This document shows positions 140-63,483 of a stretch of 64,000 nucleotides of DNA, piece by piece (the first letter of the stretch is position 1; each line of letters starts with the position of its first letter). The DNA lies in NCBI GenBank assembly GCA_004299845.1, contig CP036201.1:2852001-2916000 (forward strand), read 5' to 3'. The DNA is from Verrucomicrobia bacterium S94. GTDB taxonomy: Bacteria > Verrucomicrobiota > Kiritimatiellia > Kiritimatiellales > Pontiellaceae. The translations under genes and the position numbers were made by a program. The notes under the pieces are model-generated. The model had not been told where the DNA came from. It saw only the letters and a list, made by a program, of their open reading frames with translations, and did no database searches.

Positions 140-1546
140 TTAATCATCCAGATTCACCACCACGAAACGGGAAACCCGGCCGTCGGTAATCAGGAAGAGA
201 ATGCGATGGCCTTCATTCTCCGAAACGGCTTTCCGGAAAGCCCGGACCGAATCGATCGGCTTGCGGTTCACCGTGGTAATCACCTGTCCCGGCTGCAGTC
301 CGGCATTCCAGGCGGCACTGCCCCGTTCGACCTCGGTAATAATGACTCCTTCGATACCTTCGTATCCCATACGGCGGGCCGTATCGCCCTCCATACTTTC
401 AACCGAAATGCCCAGTTTATTGAAGGTATCGTTTTGCTGAGCGACCACTCCGGAATCATCGCTTTCCATCTCTTTCGTGACCGCTGAAATGTTGATGTAT
501 TTCCCATCACGGAAAATCTTCAGTTCAATTTTTGTATTCGGCGGCGTGTTGGCTACGCGGTTACGGAACGCATGAAGTTTTCTCACCGGCTTACCGTTCA
601 TTTCAACCACAATATCCCCGCCTTTAATACCGGCCTCCTCAGCGGCGGAATCCTCTACGACCTGATTGATCAGCACGCCGCCTTTCTGGTCCAGCCCGAA
701 GGTCGCGGCAAGGTCCTCATCCACCTCCTGCAGATAAACACCAAGCACGCTGCGTGAAACCCGGCCGTATTTAATCAGCTGCTCCTTGATATTGACGGCC
801 TGATTGATCGGAATGGCAAAACCGATGCCCATATAGCCGCCGCTCCGGGTATAGATCGCGGTATTAATGCCGACCACTTCACCGTCAATATTCAGCAGCG
901 GCCCTCCGGAATTCCCCGGATTGATCGCGGCATCGGTCTGAATAAAGTCGCCGTATTCCGCAATCCCGGTTTCATCGCGCCCTTTGGCGCTGACAATACC
1001 GGCGGTAATCGTCTGCGAAAGTCCGAAAGGGTTGCCTGCGGCAATCACCCATTCACCCACGCGAAGCGCATCGGAATCGCCCAGCGGAACCACCGGCAGC
1101 TCTTCATGTCCATCAATCTTAATCAGCGCAACTTCGGTTTTGGGATCCGTACCGATCAGCTTGGCTTCAAACTCACGCCCGTCGCCCAGCGTGACCGTGA
1201 TTTTATCGGCATTGTTCACCACATGGTTGTTGGTCAGAATATAACCGTCTTTGGAAATAATAAATCCGGACCCCTGACCGCGCTGCTGATACTCGCGTGT
1301 TTCCGGCTCACTCGGATACCCCCAGTAGCCACGCCCGAAAAATTCCTCCAGCGGATGCCGGTATCTGGTCGGCACTTCGACCGTCGTTTCGACATCAATA
1401 AAAACAACGGCGGGCAGAGCCTCCTGAGCTACCTCGGCGAACGCATCGCCCGTCTGTTTTAATGCCGCCTTTCCGGCAACGGCCGGCTCAATGCCCAGCA
1501 ATGCAACAGCCGCAAAACCGGCTGTAAGATATTTCACAACACGCAT
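140..1546 (-). CDS. htrA: HtrA/DegP-type periplasmic serine protease with two PDZ domains
   Basis: This is a trypsin-like protease/chaperone of envelope quality control. The ATG at 1546 is preferred over an upstream in-frame start because AAGGAG sits six bases before it and it begins a clean signal peptide (MRVVKYLTAGFAAVALLG, Ala-rich cleavage region). Counted from this start the catalytic triad is about His108 (TNNHVV), Asp134 (TDPKTEVALIKI) and Ser213 (NPGNSGGPL). Two PDZ domains follow at roughly residues 260-350 and 370-465, the length and order usual for DegP/DegQ/MucD. An intrinsic terminator follows. The next gene upstream on this strand is a pseudopilin gene about 110 bases away, so the gene probably has its own promoter. 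Family assignment is firm; whether it is DegP or DegQ cannot be told. Confidence 0.95.
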   Translation of the reverse strand: MRVVKYLTAGFAAVALLGIEPAVAGKAALKQTGDAFAEVAQEALPAVVFIDVETTVEVPTRYRHPLEEFFGRGYWGYPSEPETREYQQRGQGSGFIISKDGYILTNNHVVNNADKITVTLGDGREFEAKLIGTDPKTEVALIKIDGHEELPVVPLGDSDALRVGEWVIAAGNPFGLSQTITAGIVSAKGRDETGIAEYGDFIQTDAAINPGNSGGPLLNIDGEVVGINTAIYTRSGGYMGIGFAIPINQAVNIKEQLIKYGRVSRSVLGVYLQEVDEDLAATFGLDQKGGVLINQVVEDSAAEEAGIKGGDIVVEMNGKPVRKLHAFRNRVANTPPNTKIELKIFRDGKYINISAVTKEMESDDSGVVAQQNDTFNKLGISVESMEGDTARRMGYEGIEGVIITEVERGSAAWNAGLQPGQVITTVNRKPIDSVRAFRKAVSENEGHRILFLITDGRVSRFVVVNLDD

Positions 1547-10525: not shown

Positions 10526-10924
10526 CTATTCGTTATAAGCCCGTACCTCAAAAATTCGTGCCGATTTATCGCCGTTGGTCTGCAGGACATTAATCCGGAT
10601 TCTGGAAACCTCCAGCGGCTGGAACCGATGGATTAAACGTCGCTGAAAATTATCTTCCACTTCAGCCACAGTCTGCCAGCTTCCATCCACCAGCACCTCC
10701 ACGGAATAATCGCGGATACTTTCCGGAACAAACCGTTCACTTTCCTTAAATTCCCAGGATGCATGCCGTTTGTCATTCAAATCAGTATCCAGCGTCACAT
10801 AAATGGCATTCATTCTTTTGGCCTGCCCAAAATCCAGTTCCAGCCATTGCGGCATCGGCTGCGCCGGATCAGACATCCACATGTTTTTGACATCACCGAC
10901 AATCCGGCTCACCCCGCTGATCAC
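10526..10924 (-). pseudogene. C-terminal F5/8 type C (discoidin-like) domain cut off from the FAD oxidoreductase by a frameshift
   Basis: This frame encodes most of a discoidin/F5-8C carbohydrate-binding domain (PQWLELDFGQAKRMNAIYVT ... IRDYSVEVLVDGSWQTVAEV ... SRIRINVLQ). The domain's first strand ([16 protein letters not shown]) is in the upstream gene's frame. The join is the G6 tract at 10936-10941: one extra G, or a -1 slip on it, would give [19 protein letters not shown] and continue without a stop. The ORF itself begins at a GTG overlapping the upstream TGA by four bases, so separate translation is possible. Since the domain is split inside its fold, I read it as one broken gene. Confidence 0.8.
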
Positions 10925-13506
10925 CTGCTCCGGTTCCCCCCTGCCATAAAACTGGAAGCTGAAACCGTTGCACTGCGGGCCAGATCAGCCGGATCTTCGT
11001 TTTTAAGGCCAATGATGTACTGATCATCCTTAAGTAACTGCTGCTGCAGTTCTTTGATATGATTCCGATACAGGCCGCGCGGATTAACTTCTTTTGCAAC
11101 ACACATCGCAGCTGCGGTACCCGCCGCCTGACCCAGCACCCCGGTGGTTCCCTGAACACGTACATTGCCCAGAGCCACATGTGTGGCCGAAACCTGGCGC
11201 CCGGCAAACAGCAGGTTATCAATGTTCTTCGAATACAGAATCCGGAACGGAAGCTGGTTGGCGGGAGCCAACGTATTGAAATCAAACGGGCCTTCTTCCG
11301 ACCAGATTCCCTTTGGATGGTGCACATCCAGCGACCATCCGCCGGTAGCCACCGCATCTTCAAATTTACGCGCAGAAAGCACATCATCCTGCGTCAGGAT
11401 ATGATCACCCACCAAACGCCGCGTTTCCCGCTTGGCATTACCAATTGGCAGGATCGTCAGACGATAGTTCGCCGCCTCATCCTTTACCGAAGAATAGTTT
11501 TTAATCCAGTTCCAGTAACTCAGATTCAGTATAATCAGCTCATCACGTGCATTTTCCGGATCCCAAAGGTCATCCGTTTCGCCCACGTTTTCATGCCACC
11601 AGCGGCCATAGGTATGACTGCCTTCGAATCCATTGCGGGCCTCCAGATTTTTTCCGTTCGGCCGAAGATCCCACAGCCACTCAGGGCCATTGTAAGGCTG
11701 AGGACTCTTTTCCTTTTTGGTATTATAGGAAAGCGTGTGACCGGTCATCAGACAGCCGCTCATCGTGATCTTATCCGGCTGTTCCGGTGCATGGCTTTCG
11801 TTGAATTCCGACCGCGCCTCACGGCCATGACGATATTCAGCACCGGCATAATATCCCAGCCAGCCGTCGCCCGTGCAGTCGATGAACTGTTTCGCGGTAT
11901 AGCGGGTACGCGAACCATCTACCATATCAAATGCCTTCACCGCCTTAATCGCAGCTCCATCCATCTCCACTTCATTCACATGGGTGTTCAGGAAAATCGT
12001 TAAGTTCGTTTCTGCGGCCGCCACAATTTCAGCACCACGACTCCATTTTCCGTGATAATTATAAGCCCGGACCCGCCCGATTTCCTCGTTCAGTCCGCTC
12101 TCACGCATGTTCGGTTTCCCGTGATTTGCCGGTCCGGAAACAATGACCCCCAGCTCCAGACTGTTGTTGCCGCCGATCATCGGACGATCCTGAATCAACG
12201 CAGTTTTAGCACCGGTACGCGCCGACGAAATGGCGGCATTGATTCCCGCCACGCCTGCTCCAACCACGATGACATCGTAGTCCCCTTTAAATTCAGCCTT
12301 CAACGACTGACCGGTCAGTCGGGCACGTTCGTTTTTATACGCCTGCAGTTCGGCCGGCGGCGTATAGTTTTGATCGGACGTCAGAATAATCGCATCGCAG
12401 CGACCGTAAAAACCGGTCAGGTCATGCAGGGCCAGTGCAGCATCACCTTTCTCCAGTGTCACCGTTCCCCCATCTTCCCAGACCCATTTCCCACTGGCTT
12501 CCGCACCAAACGTTTTTTTCAGAGCCATTCCATTTACAGCCAGATTAAACGTTCCCGGCGCATGCTCCTTCAGCCAGTTCTTCGACCGCACCCAGATCCG
12601 GTAGGTCCCGGCTTCAGGCACCGTCAATGTGGTCACCGCATCCTTCACCGGCTGACCGATTCCGGTGGCCAGCAGATACGGCGATCCCATCTGCGGGACA
12701 AACTGCGTATCCATACTCCAGCCGCCATAATCAGCAAAATCTTCCGCATCAATCCAGATAAACCCGGGAACCGCCATTTCAGGAATACGCCGTTTTTTCT
12801 TCTCAAAAAACTGAGGAAATGTGCTGTCCTCCCGTGCCACCTGATACGCTCCTTCGTGATAGGAATCATAAATTTCCTGTTCACTCCATCCGCGACCCGC
12901 CACCCTGACCTCATCCATACGGCCGGGAACACGCGATTTTCCATCGGTCGAACCGATCACCAGACTCGACCGGCTTTTATCAATTTTCCCTGAAACCTTC
13001 TTTTCCGCATCCTTCACCCCGTCGGCATACAACGCGAGGGTTTCTCCATCATATGTCGCCGCCACATACGTCCACACGCTGTTGGGCCACTCGGTACGGC
13101 GGGAGGTCAGTTCAACCGCCTCCCCGTTGATCATCAGCTCCACCGAAAGCTTTCCGCCCGGAGCAAACCGGAATGCATAGGAACCTTTTTTGGTGATGAT
13201 TTCCGGATAGTTTTTGTAGGGCAGATTCCACATTTTCACCCAGGCTTCGACAGTCAACCCCTCCGCCGGACTCAGGCTGGAATCGTTGCCGGCATTCACA
13301 AACCCTCCGGCATTAAACAGCAGACCGGCATTGTTCACGCCCTTGTCCCACGTCACCCCTTGGGCAAATCCGATATTTCCGTTACCCGATGCATCCGATA
13401 TTTCCACTCCGGTGCCATCATCAAAATTCCACTGTCCACGCAGATCCGGATCCGCCGCACCTGCAGCCAGCACCATACTCGCGCACATCATCAACACACG
13501 TTTCAT
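10921..13506 (-). CDS. Secreted LamG-FAD-dependent oxidoreductase (3' end frameshifted)
   Basis: About 860 residues. Signal peptide, then a LamG/concanavalin-like domain (about 25-220, [20 protein letters not shown]), a carbohydrate-binding-like segment (about 245-380) and an FAD_oxidored (PF12831-like) domain from about 410. The last has the Rossmann motif [20 protein letters not shown] and [13 protein letters not shown]. Such proteins recur in polysaccharide-degrading PVC bacteria; their substrate is unknown. AGAGG precedes the ATG at 13506 by seven bases; an ATG two codons upstream is too close to it. The natural C-terminus is an F5/8C domain that is out of frame after the G6 tract at 10936-10941, so the encoded tail (NRSR, then TGA) is spurious. 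Neighbouring GH43 suggests joint action on a glycan (inference). Confidence 0.85.
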
Positions 13507-13629
13507 AGCCATACCTCTTCCAATACCAGTAGTTCAACATTCAACGTATCGGCTAAGAGCAAGACCGAATACTCCATGTATCGCAGAAGGAGAGCACATT
13601 TGCGCCACAATCCTCGCCAAAGGAAAAGA

Positions 13630-16600
13630 TCAGGGAACCCGCAGAATTAATTTAGCCGCATACATGCTCGGCAGATAAACCAGCAGATAGACCCCCAGCC
13701 AGCCCAGATCTTTCCGGGTACCCGGAAAGGAAAAGAACGACGCATTTTGCAGGGCACGCGGATAATTCACCGTCACGGAAACCACCTGCTCCGATACCTC
13801 CAGCCACGTCGAAGGTTCCCGCGGCACGCGTTGACCGAATGCAAGATTGAATTCCATTTCTGTTAAATCCCCGATCTTCAACGCAGCCGGGAAGGCACCC
13901 TCTGCCGTGTCCGGCACCTGGACCAACCAAGTCAGTTTCTGCGGCGGCACCCTGCTTTTCAGATAGGCATTCAGGCTCGTCAGCATCGTTTTCCGTACCT
14001 GCTCCCCCGCCGCCTGTACCTCCCAGGGCAGCTCCGGCATATCACTGCCCTCCAGCCAGCCGGCACGGATACGCTCAAGCTCCGCGCGAATCGGCGGCAG
14101 CATCTGTACCGCATCCGAATCTAGTTTCAGCGGCGCAGCCACCGATAGCGAAACCGGCTCGGCACAATCCCCGTCCACTTCGACCACAATGCTCACCATA
14201 CGCCCCGGCTGCGCGTTCCACGACGCCGGGTCCACCCGCGCCGGGAACCACATAAAAACCATAACCATCGGCCCCAGAATCAAGGCTAACGGAACCATCG
14301 AAGCTTTCAGAATCCGCATCGTAACCGGAGCCGCAAGTGCTTCCATTTTTTTACGAAGTTCACTGCCGCCCGGCAGTTTGGCAGCCGCTTTTCGCAATCG
14401 GCCCGACCGTCGCTTCGCTTCAAACAGGCGCTCATTATCCGTCAGCAGTTTCTGCCCGATTATCGGCAGCAGTCCGAATAAACCGGCCACAACGGCGACT
14501 GTCCCGACCATACCAACACTGCGAATCAGCGGCCACAGAAGTACATCCAGAAGGCCAAATACCGGATCGTGCAGCAACGGCGACGGAAACAGAAAAACCA
14601 GAGCCAGCAACACCCCCCAAACGATCGAAGCCATCAGTCCGATCCGGTTCGCCGCCGCCTCTTTAGCGCTTGGCGGCGGCGGAATTTCAACACGCGGAAT
14701 GGCGGTATTTTCAACCGGCTCGGCATTCGCACGGTAAATCCGGCCGGCCTGGGCATCCACCGTAATCCGTTCACCCGGTTTCAGCAGCTCCGTAGCACCG
14801 TCCAGCACCACCGCCGGCAGCCCCATTTCACGCGCCACCACAGCCCCGTGCGAAAGTGAGCCCCCGCGCTCCAGCACCAGACCGCCCGCCTTTGCAAACA
14901 GCGGTGTCCATGAAGGGTCGGTCGACGGACAGACCAGAATCGTCCCCGGCGGGAAATCAGGACAACGCTCCGGCGACCGCACAATTTCAACATAGCCTTC
15001 AACCAGACCGCTCGATACCGAATGCGCATCCAAAGTCGGGCCATCGGCTCGAACCGGTGCTGTTCCAAGCTGAGGAATATCATCGGCCTCGATAACATGC
15101 GGCACCTGAAACCGCTGTTCCACGACATATTCCAGTTTCCGCTGTGCCACGCGGTCCTTCGGAACAAAACCGGTTTCCAATGATTGAAAAATTTCGTCGG
15201 GCCGGAGGAAAAAGATGTCCTCACCCAGCTGAAGCCGGCGGCCGAACTCCAGAGCCGTTAACCGCAATACGCTGTAGGCCCGCATGAGATAAAACTTGCC
15301 GTCTTCACGGAATCGCAGATACCGCCGCACAATATCCGAGGTGGTTTTAACCTTTTCAAAAACATCCGGATCCAGCTTACCGCGCAACCGGACCAGACAA
15401 TCCTCCGCCGCCTGCATACGCTCGCGGTGCACCTGCTCCAGATCAGCATTCCCCAACCGCACGGCGAGCTGTGCCACATCCTGCGGCCGCTCGCGCCAGC
15501 GTGGCGATGCCAAATCGAATTCTGCCGGCGCACGGAATCCGTATCTTTCAATCCACGCATCAGGACTCAGCCGCTTCAGTTCGATATTGGCGGCCATGGT
15601 CCGGTCCGGAACCGTACCGACACAGAGCGTGGAAACCACCTCCTCCGGTTCTTCATCCCAGAGATATTCATTCAGAATCTGACGCAGTTCCTCCACCGCC
15701 ACGGCCTCAACCATACTGGGCAGAAACGCGGTTTTCCCAAAATCATCCAGCACAACAGCCGTCTGTTCTTTCCACAATGCAATCAGCGCATCATTTTCAA
15801 CCTCCGGAAGACGCAGTGCCTCCTGCTTCTCCGACCACGCCAGCAGCTTCGGAACAAATTCAACATCAAATTCCCGGTCAAGCGTTCCGGTCAGCTTTTC
15901 AATTTTTGCGGCGGCTTTCCGAGCCAGCCTTGCCGCATCACTGATAGCCCGCAGGCCGCCCTGCGGAAGCGTAGGCGGATTCTGAGCTGCATCGGGATCA
16001 CTGCGCAGCAGTTCCGGATCATAAGCAAACGGATAGTTTTCCGAAAACATCTCCGTCATCAGCGAGCAATCCATATAAATTTCGCCGCCGATACGGTCGA
16101 GGAAACTGCGCGCTTTCACCGCGCTGCCCGGTGAAAACCCGAGCTGTTCGTGCATTTTTCCAAAACCGCCGCAACCCGACATAAAATGCGAAACCAGGCT
16201 CCAGCTCAGCGGCGTCGGATGCGGCAGCGTTTCTCCCAGATTATGACGCACCCAGAAACCGCCCCCCTCTTCCAGACGCCGGCAGAGATACGCCCGCGTT
16301 TCTCTCAGTAACCGGTTATAACAGTCCGTCTCAGCCAGTGTGGTAATTGATCGGGCCTGCAGCATCAGCATCCGACCCTCTTCCACGGCCCACTCGATAT
16401 CCTGCGGCGCACCGAAATATTTTTCGGCACGTCGCCCCAGATCACGCAGCTGAACGATCGCTTCATAACTAAGACACGCGCGGTTCTGCAGCTCCTCCGG
16501 TACCGGTTCAACACTGGTGCCTCCGGGATAAAGGGCCTGTTTTTTCAGCGCTACGTCGTACGACAGAATGTCATCCCCGTTAACCGCCACACGCACCACA

Positions 16601-17166
16601 TCCGGCTGCACCTCACCGGAAACCAGTGCTTCGCCCAATCCCCAGGCGGCTTCAATCAGCATATGCTCCCGAGAACCGGTCTGCGGATCCACCGTAAACA
16701 GCACGCCTGCAACATCCGCCGAAACCTGCTGCTGAACCACCACCGCCATAGCCACTTCTGCCGGATCGATTCCATGCTCGGCCAAATAGGCCTCGGTCCG
16801 GGGAGAGCGGATACTGCGCCAGCACTTTTCCACCGCCTCAATGACCGCTTCCGCACCCTGCAGATTCAGAAAGGTGTCATACTGTCCGGCCATGGAGGCG
16901 CCGGCCATATCTTCGGCTGTTGCCGAAGAACGGGCCGCCATCCGTTTACCGGAAAAAGGAATCAGTGCTTCGCGGATCTGCTGCGCCAAAGCATCAGATA
17001 CACGCCCGTCTTCCGAACCCCTGAATGCCTCGGTGGTAATGACAAAACCGTCGGGCACCGGCAAATCAGCCCGCATCAGCCGGGCCAGATTGATCGCCTT
17101 TCCGCCCACCAGCCCCAATTCACAGGCCTCCGGAATGCCGACGATCCAGCGATTATGACCCTTCAT
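13630..17166 (-). CDS. Rifampin-phosphotransferase/PEP-synthase-like dikinase fused to a C-terminal membrane domain
   Basis: About 1178 residues. Residues 1-300 are a PEP/pyruvate-binding ATP-grasp domain ([60 protein letters not shown]). Residues about 300-740 resemble the substrate domain of rifampin phosphotransferases ([35 protein letters not shown]). Residues about 745-830 are the swivelling phosphohistidine domain with the active His near 773 ([20 protein letters not shown]). The last 330 residues are unlike the family: three or four hydrophobic helices separated by a basic stretch ([16 protein letters not shown]) and a periplasmic-looking beta-rich part. The helix layout faintly recalls EMC3/TMCO1-type proteins. 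The start overlaps the PQQ gene's 3' end by 14 bases, so translation is coupled. The phosphoryl acceptor is unknown. Confidence 0.8.
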
Positions 17167-18775
17167 AACAGCGGAGCCCCCCGGTTTCACTGCCCACATA
17201 AATCCGGCCGTCCTGAATCATGGGTGAACTGATCGAAAGGCCCTGTTCGCCCGGACGGGTCCGGGCATTGATATAAATTCTATCCAGCACCTCACCGGTC
17301 TCAAGCGCAAGCGTTACCAGATACCCGTCATGACTGACCGCATAGACGTGATCCCCGGCAATAGACGCCCCCGCCAGAACCGGGGCCTGTCCGCTGACAG
17401 CCGTCGACCAGATCTCCTGCCCCGTCGCCGGATCAAGCGCCTTCACCTTTCCGGACGCCACAGGTGCAATCAAATATTTTCCCGCGGCCACAGCACCGAG
17501 CACCGCATCGGGCATAGCGGTTGTCCATTTTATTCTTCCGGTTTCAGCATCAAGTGCCATCACCACTCCGGCAGGATCCGGATCGCGGAACACAAAGTCT
17601 CCATTACCTCCGCCAACGATCAGCGTATCATCCACCAGCGTCACCGCCCCCGTAATCGGATACGGCGTTTCCGTCCGCCAGATTTCACGCGGCTGACCAT
17701 TCAGCTCCGGTTCCGTCCGCAGAGCCACAACCGCCTTTCCGTTAAATCCACTGCCGATATACACCACACCGTCTTTCACAACCGGCGAACTTTCAGGATC
17801 GGCCACATCGTGCCGCCAGAGTTCTTTGCCGTCTTCAATACGAACAGCCATTACATACCCGGCATGACTGACCGGTTTATGCGTATCCGGATCCTCAATG
17901 GCTCCGGCACCGACGTAGACCACACCGTTTTCGATAACCGGAGAACTTTCAATGTGCAGTTCGGTTTGTACCGTCCAGTGAATCCTCCCCTTTTCGGCAT
18001 CAATACAGATCAGCCGGCAGTCCGTATCCGGATGCAGCCCCTGACCGATCAGCACATAGTTTCCGTCGGCCGTAACCGCCGGAGAACTGAAGAATCCCAT
18101 CAGTTCTTCACCGTCCACCTGATCAATCGACCACAGGGTATCTCCGGAATCCGCATCCACACAGAAAACAAGGCCATAACTGTCCGGCGGATCGAGCTCG
18201 CACGAAGCCGCATAAATCCGGTTGCCGAAAACCGCCGGACTCGAAAGCACCATAGCCGCTTCAACCACCTCCACTGTGCCGTCATCGTCCACCCAGCTCG
18301 GATAATAATCCCACACCAGATTCAGCTTTCCCTCCGGCGCGGAACCCGATGCTCCGAGACGGGCGGCTCCGCCTCGGAAAATCACCGGCGCTTCAGTAAC
18401 AGCCGTTTCAGACGAAACTGCCGGCCGGGACTGAACCGGAGTCCTTTCGCTTCGGCCTCTGGCTTTAATACTTTGAAGAGCTACTTCCGTCCAGTCGATA
18501 TAGACGGGTTCGGACGCCGCTGAACGGCGTGCTGATTCGCTGTCGGACAACTCTCCGCCATGCGCTGGCCAGAGCTTTACCGCCATCCAGATGCCCGCAC
18601 CAGCCAGCAGAACGCCCACCGGAAGCAGCGGTTTTTCCCGACAGGCTTTGAGCAACGCTCTGGGTTTAAACAGCAGGGCAAAAAAGGTGGCGATTCCCGC
18701 CGCCATGGCCGGAAGCAATGCCGCCCCCGCATTGACAAAGATCGGAACAACAGCAAGATCACCAGGCAGCATCAT
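17153..18775 (-). CDS. Membrane-anchored PQQ-like beta-propeller protein
   Basis: About 540 residues. Two N-terminal hydrophobic helices ([39 protein letters not shown]) are followed by a low-complexity linker and then an eight-blade-like set of PQQ/PQQ_2 repeats ([77 protein letters not shown]). No PQQ-enzyme active-site residues were recognised, so it is probably a scaffold or substrate-binding propeller in the periplasm rather than a dehydrogenase. The start at 18775 has GGGG six bases upstream; an upstream TTG would also be in frame. It overlaps the FG-GAP gene before it and the dikinase gene after it, so the three are one translation-coupled operon. Confidence 0.82.
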
Positions 18776-20732
18776 CAGAATCCCCACGCTCAATCACAAT
18801 CGATGCGCGTTTGGTTCCGGTCAGATCCACTTCCGCATCGCGTACATGCCCGTCGGCATATTCAACACTCACGTTATATGTTCCCGGCTGACGCACCGCA
18901 AAACAGACCGCATCCGGACTGCGGCATCCCGTGGCCGTATTACGACCCAGATCCTTCCGGGCAACAACCCTTCCGGCTTCATTCAGCAGCCGGACTTTCG
19001 CTCCGACCACCCCTTTCGGCCCGAGAACCCGGACCGAACAGAGCACTGTCTCCAACAGCCGTTTTTCATCTTTCGTCAACAGTTCATTTTCATCCCGCAT
19101 CGACAGCGTATCGTTCTCAATTAAAAACAGCTGCCCCTGTTCGTTGCCGATCAGCAGGTCCGGCGCGCCATCATCATTCACATCACCCACCGCAAGCGAC
19201 CGTCCGCCGGACCCATGGGCCGGTCCTTTGAAAAGCGGTTTTTCATCCACATGCACTTTCGCATGCATATAGGATCCGTATCCCCGGTTGATAATAAACC
19301 GGTTCTCTTTCTGCTGATCGCAAACGGTGTAGATATCCATGTAGCCATCCAAATTGAGGTCGGCATAGACCGTCGCCAGATGATAATCTGAACCTTCGCT
19401 GATCTCATTGCCGTACATAGTAATATCGGTCGGAACGCCGTCACGGTTTTCGATAATCAGCCAGTCCTTTTCAATCGGAACCACCAGATCCATCTGATCC
19501 TGCCGATAGGTCGGCATAAAAACACCGGCGCCGGTTTTACCGATTTCATCCATTCCGGTCCTGAAGGAAAAATCGATGTCGTGTTCCAGCGGAGCAAACC
19601 AGCCGTTTTCATCCTGCACCAGAAAATGACCGCGCCCTTCGGAATAGAAAAAATCCGTGCGGGCATCACCGTTCCAGTCGCCGGTTACGACATAGCCGTT
19701 TCCTGCATCCGGAAGTCCGGCGGAATATCCCTGGAAATCCGTTCCGGTTTCGGACGGATTCAGCAGGGTCTGCAGTCCCCCGCCCTTCAGACTGATGACC
19801 ACATCCGGAAAACCGTCTCCGTTCAGCTCAACAAATGATGCACTTTTCAGTGCCGCAGCGTTTTCCACGCTCAGCCAGTCTGTTTTCTCCAGTCCATAGG
19901 TTTTATTAAATGTACCCTTATAAATGGAGGCCCCCAGCATCAGATCCGCAAGTCCATCGCAATCCACATCGGCTGCAGAACAACTTTCAGAGGCGGAATT
20001 GATGCCCAGCGATTCGGTAACATCGGAAAACGTCATCGGTTCCACCTGCAGAAAGATACGGTCACCCTTTGGCGAACAGGCCACCAGATCCTCCATGCCG
20101 TCGCCGTTGAGATCGTACATCGCCACCCCCTCAACAGAGCCCTCCAGCTGACTGACCAGCATATCAGGTTTAAATCGGACATAGGCTTTGCGCGGATAAT
20201 ACTCCGTGTCTGCCGCCATGTCCTCCAGCATCTGAATCAACTGCCCGGTCATCCCGCAGTAAATACCGGCCAGCGTATTGACGGACCGGCCTTCCGGGTC
20301 CTTTTCGGAACCATCCGATGTACCGATATGCAGCAGCTGGGTTTCCTGGACTTCTCCGACAAAAAATTCATCGAAATACATCCGGACCTGACGCTTCGAC
20401 TTACGACGGCTCGGTTTACCCGCAAAAACCGGAAACGCTTTACCGACTTCAAAAACGCCGGCCGACACCCGCTCGGCCACCTGACTTTTCATTACACCGG
20501 TGAATACGATTTTAATGAACTGTTCCGGCAAATAGGTCCCTTTAAGGGATTTTACAACAGAACACGACAGAACCCCGGCTTCAACATCGACCGCATCAAG
20601 CCGCAGCACCATCACATGATCATATTTATCGTAATAGACATCGGGCTGCAGCGCCGGGTTGATGACCGCATGCGCCGAACCGATACCGAAAACCGCGGCC
20701 AGACCACACAGAAGTTTATTATAAAATTTCAT
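18759..20732 (-). CDS. Secreted FG-GAP/VCBS repeat protein
   Basis: 657 residues with a signal peptide ([22 protein letters not shown]). Residues about 25-165 form a beta-rich N-terminal domain of unknown type. From about 200 there are at least six FG-GAP/VCBS repeats with Dx(D/N)xDGxxD-like calcium loops ([69 protein letters not shown]), an integrin-alpha-like propeller. A C-terminal beta-sandwich domain ([20 protein letters not shown]) resembles the ASPIC/UnbV end domain of such proteins. It overlaps the PQQ propeller gene and follows the CHB_HEX_C gene by 11 bases. Likely extracellular or periplasmic partner of the operon; function unknown. Confidence 0.8.
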
Positions 20733-20743
20733 GCTGTATTTTC

Positions 20744-22324
20744 CTATCGGATGACATAGGTCGTAGTATAGGTCGGGCTGAAACCTACACCTTTTTTATA
20801 GGCCTTAACCGTCAGCTTCGTAGTTTTAGTCAGTTTAATCGGTTTGGTGTAGGCCGGAGACTGGGCGCCCGGTTCCGTACCGTCAGTTGTATAACGGATT
20901 TTCGCACCCGGCACGCGCGTCCGGACCTCGACCTCAACCGGCTCATCAAAAATAACAGCCACCGGCGTTTCAATCTGGTTGTTTCCCTTTCCTACTTTGC
21001 GAACCGTGGTGTTTTCCGGCAAAGTCCTCAGTTGAAAAGGTTCGTATACTCCAAGATGCTGATTCATGGACGCCATGGCTTTGAGTGTCAGACCGTATTC
21101 CGACCGCTGGTCCCCGCGGCCGTGGTAATAGGAATTAGGATCCGCTTTCATTTCAGCCACCAGCTTTTTCGGATTCGATGACGCACACTTTTTCCCGAAC
21201 GTCACATTTTTCCAGGTCTTCACCGCATCCTCATCAAACAGGCCGATACCGTCCTCCGCAATATAATCAAAATGCACCCCGTCAAGCTGCACGTCGCCGG
21301 CGAGCTGCAGCATCACACCCTTTTCATCATCGGCTTTTTCACCGGCCCGGCCCACTTCACGCCCCTGCCCGTCCGTAAAATCGTCTACAGATGTAATGGA
21401 AGTAACCACCAGCCGCGCTTTTTTCGGGTTTTCAGAATAGACACGGATCATTGAACCCAGCGCCGCATACAGCCCCGAACGCCCCGGCTTGTCATTCACG
21501 GCAAAACCAAGGCACAGATACGCATCCTCCGTCAGCGGCCGCTCCGGCGATCCCGCCTGCAGCACACCGTTACGGTAGATATTCACATTATAAACCGCCT
21601 TGCGGTTATCATTGATGAACGGAGCCAGACGGCCGCCGGACTGGATTTCAAGAATGCCGCCGTCATATACCTCAAACGCACCTTTATTGGTTGCCCCGCT
21701 GAATCGGAAGTCGCCGCTGATAATACACTTTCCATGCTGCAGCATCACTTCATCGCTCACACCGACGTTACTCAGAAACTCCACCGATTTTGTGCCGATC
21801 TTGCCAATCTGAAACTTATGGGAAATCTGCGAATTACAGCATTTTTCCTTCGGTGGATTTTTTGAACAGTGCCGATACACCCGACCGTCTCCCGGGAAAA
21901 CCGACTCCTCGATATTAAAATAGGTGTCTTTATCGCCGCGGATCGAAATGAAATGAATCCAGCCGCCCTCCTTCACATCTACGTTTCCCCAGATTTCCAA
22001 CTCATTCCGGTGCCGGCCTTTCAGTTCGGCATTCTCCTCTATCACCACGTGGCGGACCTGATGCTTACGCGAACCGGTTACGACATAATATTTTTCTGAT
22101 GCCGGAAGCAGAATATCAGTATTCCGATCGGGCGGCGCAGACGCGGTTTTTCCGTTTTCCGTCCAGTTGGAGGTATCACCGACCTCACCGCTCGTCCCCG
22201 GATTCGCCCAGACCAGCTGCCGCCCTTCGTCCCACGTTTCCTGCTTCCACAGCGGTTCCACCGCCTTCACTCCGGAAATGCCGCCCAGACCAACCAATAT
22301 CCCCAATAAAAAACGTAACTTCAT
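20744..22324 (-). CDS. Secreted protein with C-terminal chitobiase/beta-hexosaminidase-type (CHB_HEX_C) domain
   Basis: About 526 residues with a signal peptide ([21 protein letters not shown]). The main body is beta-rich, with a right-handed-helix or G8-like feel ([52 protein letters not shown]). It contains a double cysteine segment KEKCCNSQ. The last 75 residues are a CHB_HEX_C_1 module ([20 protein letters not shown] ... [20 protein letters not shown]), found at the ends of many surface enzymes. No catalytic domain was recognised. First gene of the operon that continues into the FG-GAP, PQQ and dikinase genes. Confidence 0.72.
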
Positions 22325-22487
22325 TATGATCAAATCCCCGTCGGTTATATGTTCTCATACTTCACAGAAAATCCCCCTGTTTAGGCACTATACATTGAAT
22401 ATTTTACAAGACAGCCCGATCCCGGAGAGCGCTCCCATCTCTATCTGATTCCCGAACAAGAGGATAGCGAACGGCGGCGCAGAAAAG

Positions 22488-22598: not shown

Positions 22599-24005
22599 CT
22601 AATCCAGCACCACTTCCTGTTCATATTCCGGAACGATGCAGTTCCAACCGGTCTTTTCAGTCAGAAATCTTCCGAAAGCCTCGGCCTGCTCTTCCTCCCC
22701 GTGGGTAATGAACACTTTTTTCGGCGGCTGCTTAATGGATGAAATCCATTGGTACAGTTCGTTCTGATCAGCATGTGCAGAGAATCCTGAAATTTTAGCC
22801 ACACGGGCTTTTACCGGCATTGTTTCACCAAACAGCCGAACCTCTTCCGCTCCATCCAGAATAATGCGGCCGAGCGTCCCGCGCGACTGATACCCGACAA
22901 AAAGAATGGTGCTTTCCGGACGTTCCAGATTGCTCTTCAAATGATGCTTCACCCGCCCGCCGGTACACATCCCGGAACCGGCAATGATGATGGCCGATTC
23001 TTTTACATGGGCAATGGCCTTGGACTGATCCACCGTTCTCGACATTTCCAGACGCGGGAAATCGCAGGGTTTATCCCCCGCCCGCAGCTGCTCCAGGGTT
23101 TCATCGTCGAACAGGTCCGGATGCTTTTTGAATACATCCGTTATTTTGATCGCCATCGGGCTGTCGACAAAAACGGGCAGCAGCGGAATACGCTCTTCAT
23201 TCACCAGCCCGTTGAGGTGATAGAGCAGTTCCTGCGTACGCTCGAGCGCAAAGCTCGGGATAATGATATTCCCGCCGGCTTCAACCGTTTCATTAATAAT
23301 GCGTGCGAGTTCACCCGGAATGTCTTTTACCTCGCCGTGCACCCGATCTCCGTAGGTCGATTCAATCAGCACATAATCCGCAGTCTCATACTGATGCGGA
23401 TCGCGCATAATCGGCAGATCCCAGCGACCGACATCGCCGGAGAACAGAATGGTCCGGGTTTCACCGCCCTGCGTAATTGAAATACGGATGGAAGAAGAGC
23501 CGAAGACATGCCCCGCCTCGCGGAATTCGGCGGTTATTCCTTCGCCAATCGTCAGGGGCCGGGCATATTTCACCTTCTGAAACATGGAACTCACCTTCTG
23601 CGCATCCTCCATCGTGTAGAGCGGCTCATAAGGAAACGGACTTTTTTTACCCTGTTTTTCATGCCGACGCTTCTTGTGTTTGATGTCCTCTTCCTGAATA
23701 TGCGCCGAATCCTGCATAATGATATTGGCAATTTCGGCCGTCGCCGACGTCGCATAAACCGTCCCCTCAAACCCCTCTTTCACCAGTTTCGGAATGCGCC
23801 CGCAATGATCCAGATGAGCATGGGTCAGCAGAACCCCGTCAATCGTATTGGCCGGCACCGGAAATTCAGCCCAGTTGCGTGGCTTCAGATCGCGTTCCTG
23901 ATACAGGCCGCAGTCAATCAGAAACCGCTTCCCGTTGGCTTCGAGATAATAGCAGGATCCCGTTACATTTTTTGCCGCGCCGAAAAAGTTGAGTTTAATC
24001 TGCAT
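22599..24005 (-). CDS. Metallo-beta-lactamase fold, beta-CASP RNA-processing exonuclease
   Basis: 468 residues. The zinc site is visible as THAHLDHCGRIPKL, with an upstream Asp in RFLIDCGLYQE and a later FSGDVGRWDLPIM. The beta-CASP insert includes the KSNLERPESTILFVGYQSRG region and a C-terminal GFSAHADQNELYQWI histidine motif. This is the YSH1/CPSF73-like bacterial type rather than RNase J (no long C-terminal domain). AGGAG lies six bases before the ATG. Likely an RNA endo- or exonuclease in the cytosol. Confidence 0.9.
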   Translation of the reverse strand: MQIKLNFFGAAKNVTGSCYYLEANGKRFLIDCGLYQERDLKPRNWAEFPVPANTIDGVLLTHAHLDHCGRIPKLVKEGFEGTVYATSATAEIANIIMQDSAHIQEEDIKHKKRRHEKQGKKSPFPYEPLYTMEDAQKVSSMFQKVKYARPLTIGEGITAEFREAGHVFGSSSIRISITQGGETRTILFSGDVGRWDLPIMRDPHQYETADYVLIESTYGDRVHGEVKDIPGELARIINETVEAGGNIIIPSFALERTQELLYHLNGLVNEERIPLLPVFVDSPMAIKITDVFKKHPDLFDDETLEQLRAGDKPCDFPRLEMSRTVDQSKAIAHVKESAIIIAGSGMCTGGRVKHHLKSNLERPESTILFVGYQSRGTLGRIILDGAEEVRLFGETMPVKARVAKISGFSAHADQNELYQWISSIKQPPKKVFITHGEEEQAEAFGRFLTEKTGWNCIVPEYEQEVVLD

Positions 24006-49794: not shown

Positions 49795-51861
49795 ATGAAT
49801 GCGCACGTCCACAGCAATCCACTACGGCTGTTCTGCAGCTTCCGCCTGACGGCAGCACTTCTCATTTCCGCCTTTTCGGCAGGCGGAGTACGGGCTGAAT
49901 TCAGCATGACGCTTAATCTCGATCATACGGGCGGCTCCTTATATCCGTATATTTCTTTCTTCGCCGACGGCGCAGCGGAACCGCTGACGTACCACCGGAT
50001 CGAATCACCGAACGGTCTGTTCTATCGCAACACCGGAAGCCGGAATGACTACAGTTACGGCAGCCAAACCTATGCAGATGTGATTGATGAATGTACCGAC
50101 GGACCATGGACCCTCACCACCAACGTCGGTGATCCCTCTGAGGAAGAATATACGTTCACCGTCAGTATATCCGGATTGAGTGCAGGAATGTTCGGCGAAA
50201 CCTCCGTCACCAATCCGGCCGAATATGCCACGGTGTCGACCAATCAGCCGCTCATTGAATGGACCGGAACGTCTCTGTTTCCCGAAATCCACATTCAGGT
50301 GCATAACGGGGTACAACCGCCGGAACCCGGAAACTATTACACCGCTCCGGCCCCCTTCAACAGCTGGACGCCGCCGGCGCCGGTGCTGCCCGGCACAAAC
50401 CATATTTATCTCGCCTACCAGACCAACAGCTTTGCAGGCATCACCTTCACCACGCCGATGACCGGCGGCGGATCGCCACTCACCGGCTGGAATGCATCCG
50501 CGGATGTCAGCAGTTATGACTCCACGACATTTATCGCTCCGGGCAGCTGCACAGACCCCTTCAATATTGCGGTCGAATGCCCCGGCTTCAACTGGTACAC
50601 CGATGAATACGAGCCCTGGGTGGTCTCATACGACAACTTTACAGCGGGCTCCTCGTCGTTGCAGAGCACGGCCGCTGAATGGGGATATTCTTATCTGGAA
50701 GCCATCGTCCAGGGTCCCGCAGTTATCACCTTCGATTGGGCCCTGTTCGGGAGCGATGGCGATTCCTTCGAGTTTTACTCGTACGACGACGGAACCTCTT
50801 ATGATGAGGATTTCTTCTATTACGAGGGCTATGATGTCTACGGCTGGGATACCCACACCGTCACCCTCTCCTCCAATGACATCTATTATCTCACCTGGTC
50901 CTTCTACAACGATGATACCAACGCCTTCTATCCGGACTCCGCCTTCCTCGACAACATCCGCTATACATATACTGGAGACAACAGCAACAGTGTCAGCCAC
51001 GAAGCGGAATTCGAGGTTGAAATTCAGCGGGTCACTTCCGGCACCAACACGCACTACCTGATTTTACCGCGCCTGAACAATATCATTCCATCCTCCAGTC
51101 TCGACGAAGTGGTATCGCCCAACAACCGCTGCTCCGGCACGGAAAACTCATCGTCTTCCATTAATTTTCCCACGCTGCAGGCGGTGATCGACGAATTGCA
51201 AGACGGGCCCTGGACCATCTACTTCGACCGCAACGGGGCCACCTACGAATATGACTTCACCATAAATGTCAATTCGCTCAGCACCAATGACCTCCCGCCG
51301 GTCACCATCACGCAGCCGCTCGATGGTTCCACAGGCATCTCTACCGCTTCTGCTTTCGAATGGAGCGGGCCTTCCAGTTGGGACTCGGCCTTCATCTATG
51401 TCCGCGATGCTGAAGCCCCTGCAACCGTTGACAGCAGCTCCATTTCACCGTCTGACACAAACTGGACGGCGTCTGTCCCGCTTCCGGAAGCCACAAACAG
51501 CGTATCGATCAGCTACTCGGAATACGGTTTCTCCGGACTCTCCTTCAGCCATCCCTCCAACGGTTCCCAATCGCTCGCAAGCTGGTCTGCTTCGGTTGAC
51601 CTCGGCTCACGCGGCCTCTCAGAGTTTGTCGTAGGAATCACTCCCCAGCCCGTCAGCATCCTATCCCCGGTCCTGTCCGCAGGAAACTTCGGTCTGTCGT
51701 TTATATCGCAGTCCGGCACAACCCACATTGTGGAATGGACCCCCAGCCTGACCAATACCACGTGGTATTCCGCCACCAACTTTCCCGGCGACGGCATGAC
51801 CAATCTCGTGAACCTTCCAACCACCAATCCGGCAGCCTACTTCCGCGTTAAAACCCAGTAA
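49795..51861 (+). CDS. Large secreted protein of two related halves with Verrucomicrobia-type C-terminal domain
   Basis: 688 residues with a long signal peptide (hydrophobic core FRLTAALLISAFSAG). Residues about 35-255 and 405-625 are related modules: each has a VIDE or VIDELQDGPW strand, a YTFTVS/YDFTIN strand, a NQPLIEW/ASAFEW strand, a NHIYLAY/NSVSISY strand and a LTGWNASADV/LASWSASVDL end. Between them is a domain rich in Tyr and Asp (FEFYSYDDGTSYDEDFFYYE) resembling MAM/jelly-roll folds. The last 70 residues (HIVEWTPSLTNTTWYSATNF ... AAYFRVKTQ) match a C-terminal segment common on secreted PVC proteins. No enzyme motif. Probably an extracellular binding protein. Confidence 0.75.
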   Translation: MNAHVHSNPLRLFCSFRLTAALLISAFSAGGVRAEFSMTLNLDHTGGSLYPYISFFADGAAEPLTYHRIESPNGLFYRNTGSRNDYSYGSQTYADVIDECTDGPWTLTTNVGDPSEEEYTFTVSISGLSAGMFGETSVTNPAEYATVSTNQPLIEWTGTSLFPEIHIQVHNGVQPPEPGNYYTAPAPFNSWTPPAPVLPGTNHIYLAYQTNSFAGITFTTPMTGGGSPLTGWNASADVSSYDSTTFIAPGSCTDPFNIAVECPGFNWYTDEYEPWVVSYDNFTAGSSSLQSTAAEWGYSYLEAIVQGPAVITFDWALFGSDGDSFEFYSYDDGTSYDEDFFYYEGYDVYGWDTHTVTLSSNDIYYLTWSFYNDDTNAFYPDSAFLDNIRYTYTGDNSNSVSHEAEFEVEIQRVTSGTNTHYLILPRLNNIIPSSSLDEVVSPNNRCSGTENSSSSINFPTLQAVIDELQDGPWTIYFDRNGATYEYDFTINVNSLSTNDLPPVTITQPLDGSTGISTASAFEWSGPSSWDSAFIYVRDAEAPATVDSSSISPSDTNWTASVPLPEATNSVSISYSEYGFSGLSFSHPSNGSQSLASWSASVDLGSRGLSEFVVGITPQPVSILSPVLSAGNFGLSFISQSGTTHIVEWTPSLTNTTWYSATNFPGDGMTNLVNLPTTNPAAYFRVKTQ

Positions 51862-61419: not shown

Positions 61420-63483
61420 TCAGTCGAGCGTGCATTCCATGACGAAATCGTCCATCAGGAATCCGGATCCGATATCTTTCTTTATCTCATCGGTAACCTC
61501 AAAACCTTTCCGCCGGTACCACTCAATGGCCGGGGTATTATTCCGATTGACCGTCAAACAGATCGCGCTTGCACCGGACTCCTCCGCACGTGCTTTACTG
61601 TACTCGAGAAAGATTCCGCCAAGACCTGATCCGCGGCATGAATCTTTAACGTAAATTTTGCTGATCATCAGCTTTCCATCAATATGATTCGGGATCAGGC
61701 TCAGGTATCCCACGGGATCATCACCGTGCAGAGCCAGATAGTATTCATAGCCGGAGTCTATCTGGGATTCGAGCGCCTCAATACTTTGAAACTGCTCCAG
61801 CATATAATCCACCTGTTCCTGACCGATTATTTCCGGGAAATGCTCATTCCATATTTCCGCAGCCAATGAGGCCAGAACATCAACCTGCTGACGGTTTGTA
61901 ACCCGTTCAATCGTAATGTCCATGAGACATTCTCCGGATACCGTCTTAAGCCTCACCTCTGCAGGGGATGGCCTGTCATCACCGGCATACTGATCCGGAC
62001 GATCTTCCTTTTCGGCAGAAACGTCCTCCGCAACCGCATTCAGCAGAACCGACCGTATAGTCTCCTCTTCGCTGGCATGAGCCAGCACGGTCACCTGATC
62101 TCCCCCGTGCAGATGAGTCGATCCCTTGGGAGCGATCAGCAGTTTACCCCGCGTAATCAAAGTAATCACCGCCCCGGCAGGAAGCTGAAGTTCGGCGATG
62201 GTTTTACCGACCACTCCCTGAGGGTCGGGCAGATCCACGACAATCAAATCGAAATCGCTTTTACTCATGGTAACGAGCTCCAGATTGAACAAGGGCCTGG
62301 GACGCATCGGACAGGTCAGCTTCAACCATTTTGCCAGCACCCCCAGCGTGCTTCCCTGCACTGCAATAGACAGAAGGACCGCAAAGAAAACCATGTTGAA
62401 AATATCCTGCCCGACGGCCAGTCCGGCAGCGGCGGGATAGGTGGCGAGCACGATCGGAACCGATCCGCGCAACCCGGCCCAGGCGATAAACATTTTATCC
62501 TTCCATCCCAGGCGCATACCGATCGTTCCGATTAAAACCGCCAGCGGGCGGGAGATGAACGTCAGAACCGCGAAAACAATAATTCCCTGCATCCAGATGT
62601 TCGCCCATTGGTGCGGAAACACCTGTAGTCCCAGCATGACGAACATGGCAATGTTGGCCACGGTGGAGAGCGCCGCTGAAAAGTTGGTCACCCCCTGTTT
62701 ATGAACAAAGGGCCGGTTCCCCATCACATAACCGGCAACGAAAACCGCAAGCATGCCGCTGGCCTGAAGCGCATCTGCAATGCCGTAAGTCAGCAGGATC
62801 ATGCCCAGCGAAAGTACATAATAATGTCCCCGGTCCTGAGGGCTCAGCCGATTAAACAGCCACAGACCTGCGCGCCCGATCGCCCACCCCACCAGCGGTG
62901 CCGCCGAAAATTTCCAGATAAATTGAACCACGGTCATCGGCAGAGCCGTATCGGACGAAGTCAGCATGCCCAAAACAGCGGCCGTGAGCAGCACGGCCAT
63001 CGGGTCGTTGGCCCCGCTTTCAATTTCAGTAATTGAAGAGAGCTTTTTCGGAAGCGACTGCCGGCGGAGAATCGAAAAAATGGCCGCTGCATCGGTGGAG
63101 GAGATAATGACGGAAAGCAGAATCGACTGTTCAAACGGCCATTCGAGAAGATAGCGCAAGACCCCGAAGGTGGTGGCTGCAGTCAGAATAACGCCCCATG
63201 TAGCCAGGCCTCCGGCCGGCAGGGCCACCGCCTTAAAGTCCGATTTCCGGGTCGAGAAGCCGCCATGAAAAAGAATGAACACCAGGGCCAGGTTTGCGAT
63301 CTGCTTCGTTAGACCGATGTCGTCGAAGTACCAGAGATTGAGCACATCACTGCCGCAGAGAATTCCGGCACACAGCGCAATCAGGATGACCGGGACGCTC
63401 CAGCGGTCCAGCCATACGGCGGCAAGAACAACTCCGATCAGAATCAACGATCCTATTAAATACACCGAATCCATGGTCTCCAT
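61420..63483 (-). CDS. NhaP2-type K+/H+ antiporter with TrkA-C domain, fused to a GNAT acetyltransferase
   Basis: 687 residues. Residues 1-390 are a CPA1/NhaP2-like antiporter with about 12 helices (LALVFILFHGGFSTRKSDFK, SSTDAAAIFSILRRQSLP, IESGANDPMAVLLTAAVL, GLRGSVPIVLATYPAAAG). About 410-500 is a RCK/TrkA-C domain (VVDLPDPQGVVGKTIAELQL, HLHGGDQVTVLAHASEEET). The last 167 residues are a GNAT domain (ISKIYVKDSCRGSGLGGIFL, AIEWYRRKGFEVTDE). The GNAT part begins at an in-frame ATG (61923) with GGAG eight bases before it, so the acetyltransferase may also be made alone. Convergent with the VOC-methyltransferase gene. Confidence 0.88.
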   Translation of the reverse strand: METMDSVYLIGSLILIGVVLAAVWLDRWSVPVILIALCAGILCGSDVLNLWYFDDIGLTKQIANLALVFILFHGGFSTRKSDFKAVALPAGGLATWGVILTAATTFGVLRYLLEWPFEQSILLSVIISSTDAAAIFSILRRQSLPKKLSSITEIESGANDPMAVLLTAAVLGMLTSSDTALPMTVVQFIWKFSAAPLVGWAIGRAGLWLFNRLSPQDRGHYYVLSLGMILLTYGIADALQASGMLAVFVAGYVMGNRPFVHKQGVTNFSAALSTVANIAMFVMLGLQVFPHQWANIWMQGIIVFAVLTFISRPLAVLIGTIGMRLGWKDKMFIAWAGLRGSVPIVLATYPAAAGLAVGQDIFNMVFFAVLLSIAVQGSTLGVLAKWLKLTCPMRPRPLFNLELVTMSKSDFDLIVVDLPDPQGVVGKTIAELQLPAGAVITLITRGKLLIAPKGSTHLHGGDQVTVLAHASEEETIRSVLLNAVAEDVSAEKEDRPDQYAGDDRPSPAEVRLKTVSGECLMDITIERVTNRQQVDVLASLAAEIWNEHFPEIIGQEQVDYMLEQFQSIEALESQIDSGYEYYLALHGDDPVGYLSLIPNHIDGKLMISKIYVKDSCRGSGLGGIFLEYSKARAEESGASAICLTVNRNNTPAIEWYRRKGFEVTDEIKKDIGSGFLMDDFVMECTLD

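Follow-up and report, generated by a model that had tools for sequence, protein, structure and literature searches.

A phosphohistidine dikinase fused to an EMC3/TMCO1-type membrane domain in a bacterial gene set with a membrane-anchored propeller

We found that a predicted phosphohistidine dikinase of Verrucomicrobia bacterium S94 carries, as its C-terminal tail, an EMC3/TMCO1-type domain of the Oxa1 insertase superfamily into which a beta-sandwich is inserted. Its gene, DIK, lies in a 64,000-nucleotide stretch (contig CP036201.1, positions 2,852,001 to 2,916,000; G000:C1:2852001-2916000, on a single 4.1-Mb contig), hereafter the window, and is the last of four minus-strand open reading frames between 22333 and 13630, in the order SURF, FG-GAP, PQQ and DIK (Table 1). 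Archaea and human cells insert membrane proteins with EMC3/TMCO1-type domains. Open-access sources report such insertases from archaea and from the endoplasmic reticulum (ER) of eukaryotes, and credit bacteria with YidC only.

A preliminary description of the window, made from the letters alone, had ended DIK with about 330 residues of membrane and periplasmic sequence. The fused membrane domain is indeed present, but it is not generic sequence. About 350 residues follow the phosphohistidine domain, in the predicted order one added transmembrane (TM) helix, H1, a cytoplasmic hairpin, H4, a periplasmic beta-sandwich and H5. By itself the tail of the window reaches 12.4 bits, under the cut-off of Pfam EMC3_TMCO1 (PF01956), which explains why a plain Pfam scan misses it. 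The separate homologues found beside other dikinases (~290 residues) matched this family in all six cases scanned (best E 1.3e-8, 35.3 bits, cut-off 27.1), and fused tails aligned with the separate PF01956 proteins over 268 columns (hhalign, 97.9%, E 4.7e-13). A profile of fused tails only ranked the archaeal YidC MJ0480 (5c8j) first among PDB sequences (E 7.2e-9); the combined profile of fused and separate forms reached E 8.9e-12 with MJ0480, a weak second stretch spanning the last helix. At L061, L068 and L070, Pfam EMC3_TMCO1 also picked up ordinary YidC with low scores, a direct sequence sign of the Oxa1 superfamily link.

The AF2 model of the tail (mean pLDDT 90) adopts the Oxa1 layout, with a three-helix core and the hairpin between H1 and H4. 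In VIA-align the best row was TMCO1 of the multipass translocon (7tut_8, Z 8.1, root-mean-square deviation 4.2, 137 aligned), followed by a second TMCO1 row (6w6l_6, Z 6.4), and the remaining rows listed cover the beta-domain alone; Foldseek against the PDB gave no significant match for the tail model. For helical folds a Z of about 8 is a modest value, so it is the sequence evidence that carries the identity of the tail. The hairpin region holds a mean of 10.2 K+R in 44 residues and is thus likely to be cytoplasmic by the positive-inside rule; model, charges and family membership together suggest an N-out/C-in core. The fused form has one TM helix that the separate form lacks, and this added helix would allow a cytoplasmic dikinase to precede an N-out Oxa1 core. 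H5 carries a GWLxxYL motif.

The catalytic part of DIK belongs to the rifampin phosphotransferase (RPH)/phosphoenolpyruvate (PEP)-synthase-type dikinase superfamily, in agreement with the RPH-like enzyme of ATP-grasp, middle and phosphohistidine domains proposed in the preliminary description. It matches Pfam PPDK_N (3e-75) and PEP-utilizers (2.7e-23), and its closest solved relatives are RPH entries (5fbs/5hv1/5hv2, E about 1e-86), the match taking in the latter half of the domain that binds their substrate. The catalytic residues of the ATP-grasp and swivel histidine domains are intact: K23, R79, E258, Q270, R272 and H773 are kept in 41-42 of the 42 dikinases aligned. PEP synthase has a regulatory Thr two residues before its His (PMC12167813), and all 42 dikinases have Leu there. 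This Leu, together with the lack of a pyruvate-binding PEP_utilizers_C domain in the Pfam scan, led us to reject PEP synthase as an identity for DIK; a rifamycin-inactivating phosphotransferase was likewise rejected (NF041857, 371 bits, cut-off 999). DIK exceeds the cut-off of no curated NCBIfam rifampin or PEP-synthase model. Members of the RPH-type/HpeHI branch phosphorylate lipophilic hydroxyl compounds via a swivelling histidine (PMC12167813).

PQQ, encoded directly upstream, is the membrane-anchored propeller that had been predicted, as indicated by its Pfam PQQ_2 match (1.5e-34) and by its AF2 model (m773bbf39c445), in which two N-terminal helices flank a positively charged loop and a disordered linker then leads to a propeller of eight blades. 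Structural matches of the propeller (Foldseek/VIA) were BamB, tetrathionate hydrolase and eight-bladed designs. The protein was not accepted as BamB itself, given 97.9 bits against the TIGR03300 cut-off of 285 and the N-terminal helix hairpin in the model. With the EMC1-type propeller model PF25293 it gave a weak match (20.8 bits, cut-off 34), and no such match was seen in PQQ homologues of the branch with separate EMC3-like proteins, which appear to hold two propellers; specific homology to EMC1 is not supported.

The four genes are packed as tightly as previously claimed, with 11 bases between SURF and FG-GAP, a 17-base overlap of FG-GAP and PQQ (18775/18759) and a 14-base overlap of PQQ and DIK (17166/17153). 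Compared with the same-genus genome L042, the proteins of the locus are 78-92% identical, with ratios of nonsynonymous to synonymous substitution rates (dN/dS) of 0.05-0.17 per gene (SURF 0.05, FG-GAP 0.16, PQQ 0.14; within DIK, 0.186 for the catalytic part and 0.136 for the tail). All locus genes are under purifying selection in this comparison, and this together with the identity shows that the set is not a product of chance.

To follow the gene set, loci were selected by dikinase similarity alone, which gave 41 besides the window. PQQ was the immediate upstream neighbour, in the same orientation, in all 37 testable loci, the other four ending at contig edges. The EMC3-like domain was present in 40 of the 41, fused in 15 and separate in 25; in the latter branch the phosphohistidine domain is the last of the dikinase, and the membrane protein is encoded next to it (at L113 in the order PQQ, EMC3-like, DIK). 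In the tree the fused forms make up one clade (support 100/99) and the separate forms another (98/98), the long-branched L115 excepted. Both kinds of module are present in genomes G157, G311 and G015 (pairs L045/L056, L046/L055 and L047/L057), and this coexistence suggests different clients or substrates. The nearest named relative, from a Pontiellaceae bacterium (Kiritimatiellota), shares 70% identity with DIK along almost its entire length. Full-length DIK including the tail recurs in L007-L011 (44-70% identity) and in the phylum survey (37-78%), so that the C-terminal domain, whose absence from homologues would have pointed to an assembly chimera, is found at full length in 15 further fused loci. 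Gene order is likewise conserved in relatives: the complete SURF, FG-GAP, PQQ, DIK order occurs in L042, L007 and L009, and L008 and L010 keep FG-GAP, PQQ and DIK up to the contig end. The near-invariant core is PQQ, dikinase and EMC3-like domain, with FG-GAP frequent and SURF occasional.

The association also holds from the side of the membrane domain. Genuine PF01956 proteins were found at such dikinases in seven of seven cases in the phylum of the window and in seven of seven in Planctomycetota, the phylum of L010; one locus, L137, was reached only via PF01956, and its dikinase was then found directly upstream. Other PF01956 matches of the phylum survey were set aside: those in frames of ~600 amino acids look like housekeeping YidC (the three translated read as YidC), and the remaining ones without a dikinase look like noise. 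In the two bacterial phyla sampled, EMC3-like proteins thus occur only with such a dikinase, and the module is found in bacteria related to Kiritimatiella and planctomycetes, at least two phyla. The genome of the window encodes a single EMC3-like protein, a single PQQ protein of this kind and a normal YidC; because the cell has its own YidC, the module is not its housekeeping insertase.

The two outer genes are less constant. The preliminary description had counted two large secreted beta-propeller-type proteins, which is correct for FG-GAP (Pfam FG-GAP_3, 1.9e-25, with an INPxxxP motif after the signal peptide) but not for SURF, in which the Pfam scan revealed no propeller repeats and only a C-terminal CHB_HEX_C_1/Fn3_assoc region over cut-off (1e-15). 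Propellers are accordingly present in two of the four proteins, FG-GAP and PQQ. Twenty loci have FG-GAP relatives at most 4.5 kb from the core, and those of both dikinase branches align along their length. SURF, the least conserved part of the system, is an occasional partner, its orthologue directly preceding FG-GAP in L042, L007 and L009 and sitting at the very end of a different contig in the L008 genome. SURF-like and FG-GAP genes, distant relatives of those in the window, form their own adjacent pair near the core in L108 (which has two), L109, L110 and L112, some pairs being on the opposite strand or downstream.

Table 1 Features of the four-gene locus in the window (tail elements in the numbering of the AF2 model of the tail)
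Feature	Position	Strand	Description
SURF	20744..22333	minus	ATG 22324 (TTG 22333 possible) to stop 20744; secreted; C-terminal CHB_HEX_C_1 domain; optional partner
FG-GAP	18759..20732	minus	Secreted FG-GAP repeat protein with Sec-type signal peptide; frequent partner
PQQ	17153..18775	minus	ATG 18775; two-helix membrane hairpin, disordered linker, BamB-like eight-bladed periplasmic propeller (predicted); core
DIK (dikinase)	13630..17166	minus	
DIK, RPH/PEP-synthase-like dikinase part	14689..17166	minus	ATP-grasp, helical middle domain, swivel domain with phosphohistidine H773
DIK, C-terminal domain	13630..14688	minus	EMC3/TMCO1-type (archaeal YidC, PF01956, Oxa1 superfamily); profile, AF2 and VIA
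Elements of the tail	added helix 8-33; H1 40-82; hairpin 85-103; H4 110-151; beta-domain ~158-313; H5 329-349		AF2 model

These data can be read as a machine of the inner membrane: a phosphohistidine dikinase would act where an Oxa1-type groove opens to the cytoplasm, and propellers would lie outside. We give this reading an even chance. Its core would consist of the PEP-synthase/RPH-type dikinase, the EMC3/TMCO1-type membrane domain and the membrane-anchored periplasmic PQQ-type propeller, with the secreted FG-GAP propeller as an added outer partner. The ATP-grasp domain would spend ATP (yielding AMP and inorganic phosphate) in phosphorylating H773 on the swivel domain, which would then bring the phosphate to a hydroxyl-bearing acceptor in the middle domain. 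This acceptor would most likely be a lipophilic molecule associated with the membrane, or a head group linked to a lipid, presented where the groove opens to the cytoplasm; we infer its lipophilic nature from the RPH/HpeHI branch (PMC12167813) and from the finding that insertases of the Oxa1 superfamily scramble lipids (PMC10491306). The groove may thin the bilayer such that a polar group reaches or crosses the membrane, and the propellers and the beta-sandwich may receive or hold the partner on the outside; both the direction of this putative cycle and a physical complex reaching outward through the propellers, the latter already suggested in the preliminary description, are part of the proposal. 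In its most specific form, which we offer tentatively and hold to be possible rather than probable, a bacterial EMC-like machine would couple phosphotransfer from ATP by the dikinase to moving a client, either a protein or a lipid-linked one, via the EMC3-type groove, PQQ and FG-GAP acting as outer receptors.

Three observations weigh against such a machine. Alignment A3 shows no invariant charged residue in the middle of H1, where YidC has one, so that an open hydrophilic groove is only a possibility; the module is accessory, being carried by three of ten genomes of the genus; and L115 has dikinase and propeller with no EMC3-like gene. The accessory distribution and the lack of an obvious charged groove residue would suit a simpler scheme, in which the tail is merely an anchor and an RPH-like kinase, held at the membrane, modifies some small lipophilic compound in detoxification or biosynthesis, the Oxa1 fold having lost its role in transport. 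The RPH branch does detoxify or activate small hydroxyl compounds. However, constraint on the tail is no weaker than on the catalytic part (dN/dS 0.136 versus 0.186), and the tail keeps all the Oxa1 elements and is accompanied by the propeller wherever this could be tested. The sister clade encodes the domain by a gene of its own, so that anchoring in cis is not required of it. We regard this scheme as unlikely.

We are also doubtful that the module is a specialised protein insertase or chaperone like the eukaryotic ER membrane protein complex (EMC), in which the EMC3-like domain would insert or fold membrane or surface clients, the propeller would act like the lumenal propellers of EMC1, and the dikinase would gate or power the cycle by phosphotransfer. 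EMC1 has a PQQ-like lumenal part with two propellers, and EMC7 and EMC10 have beta-sandwiches (PMC7188443, PMC7785296). An EMC3-family core beside a seemingly two-propeller PQQ protein in the split branch would parallel EMC3 and EMC1, the beta-sandwich inserted in the tail would parallel those of EMC7 and EMC10, and FG-GAP and SURF could be clients. The propeller's match to EMC1 is nevertheless weak and is absent in the two-propeller proteins. No counterparts of EMC2, EMC5 or EMC6 were identified, though no search was directed at them. Furthermore, no insertase known to us works with a dikinase. An assembly chimera or the chance adjacency of unrelated genes has a practically negligible probability, and is refuted because independently assembled genomes of more than one phylum share the fusion and the gene order and because the fused forms make a single clade.

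Several neighbouring genes deserve mention. Directly downstream of the dikinase lies FADox (10924-13512), an FAD-dependent oxidoreductase with an N-terminal LamG-like domain, which is 92% identical in L042, where PQQ, FG-GAP and the dikinase are 78-84% identical. It adjoins the dikinase in L042 but is absent beside it in L007-L011 and was therefore left out of the operon. Upstream, 22602-24005 encodes a beta-CASP metallo-beta-lactamase protein that reaches 415 bits, well short of the cut-off of 800, in the NCBIfam type VII CRISPR Cas14 model and is probably an ordinary beta-CASP nuclease. Elsewhere in the window, a single frame at 61423-63483 joins a Na+/H+ exchanger to TrkA_C and, at the C-terminus, to a GNAT acetyltransferase domain, and 49795-51858 is a 688-residue open frame with no Pfam match at E 0.001.

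The preliminary description knew of no system with this composition, and we found none in the open-access literature; nor do open-access PubMed Central papers describe bacterial EMC3-like proteins linked to a dikinase, or this gene set. One paper on prokaryotic Oxa1 proteins collected PF01956 sequences from archaea only (PMC8675477). The parts of the system come from known families, and no known system in that literature combines them. That bacteria of two or more phyla link an EMC3-type domain to a phosphohistidine dikinase suggests another way of energising or using the Oxa1-type groove, and a dikinase-energised EMC-like machine, if true, would be a principle of membrane transport or biogenesis without a known counterpart. 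Because the trio of dikinase, propeller and EMC3-like domain is compact and sharply defined and its catalytic residues are intact, it is directly testable.

With EMC3, TMCO1 and archaeal YidC (MJ0480) the tail shares the profile match, the three-helix core with its cytoplasmic hairpin, the probable N-out/C-in topology and a GWLxxY-type last helix. Unlike them it is bacterial and occurs alongside a normal YidC, holds a beta-sandwich of ~150 residues between H4 and H5, and is fused or linked to a dikinase, with the extra TM helix in the fused form. The dikinase resembles RPH/HpeHI-type enzymes in its ATP-grasp domain, helical middle domain with a homologous second half, swivel His and non-Thr residue two before that His, but differs in being membrane-fused or membrane-linked and in scoring far under the rifampin-specific cut-off. 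The eight-bladed PQQ-type propeller fold is that of BamB, whereas the predicted anchor is an inner-membrane two-helix hairpin rather than a lipoprotein anchor and the score stays under the BamB model cut-off. The eukaryotic EMC likewise pairs an EMC3-family core with a membrane-anchored PQQ-type propeller facing the exterior or lumen, a likeness drawn for EMC1 and EMC3; in the present system, by contrast, a dikinase would lie on the cytoplasmic side and the propeller is not specifically EMC1-like.

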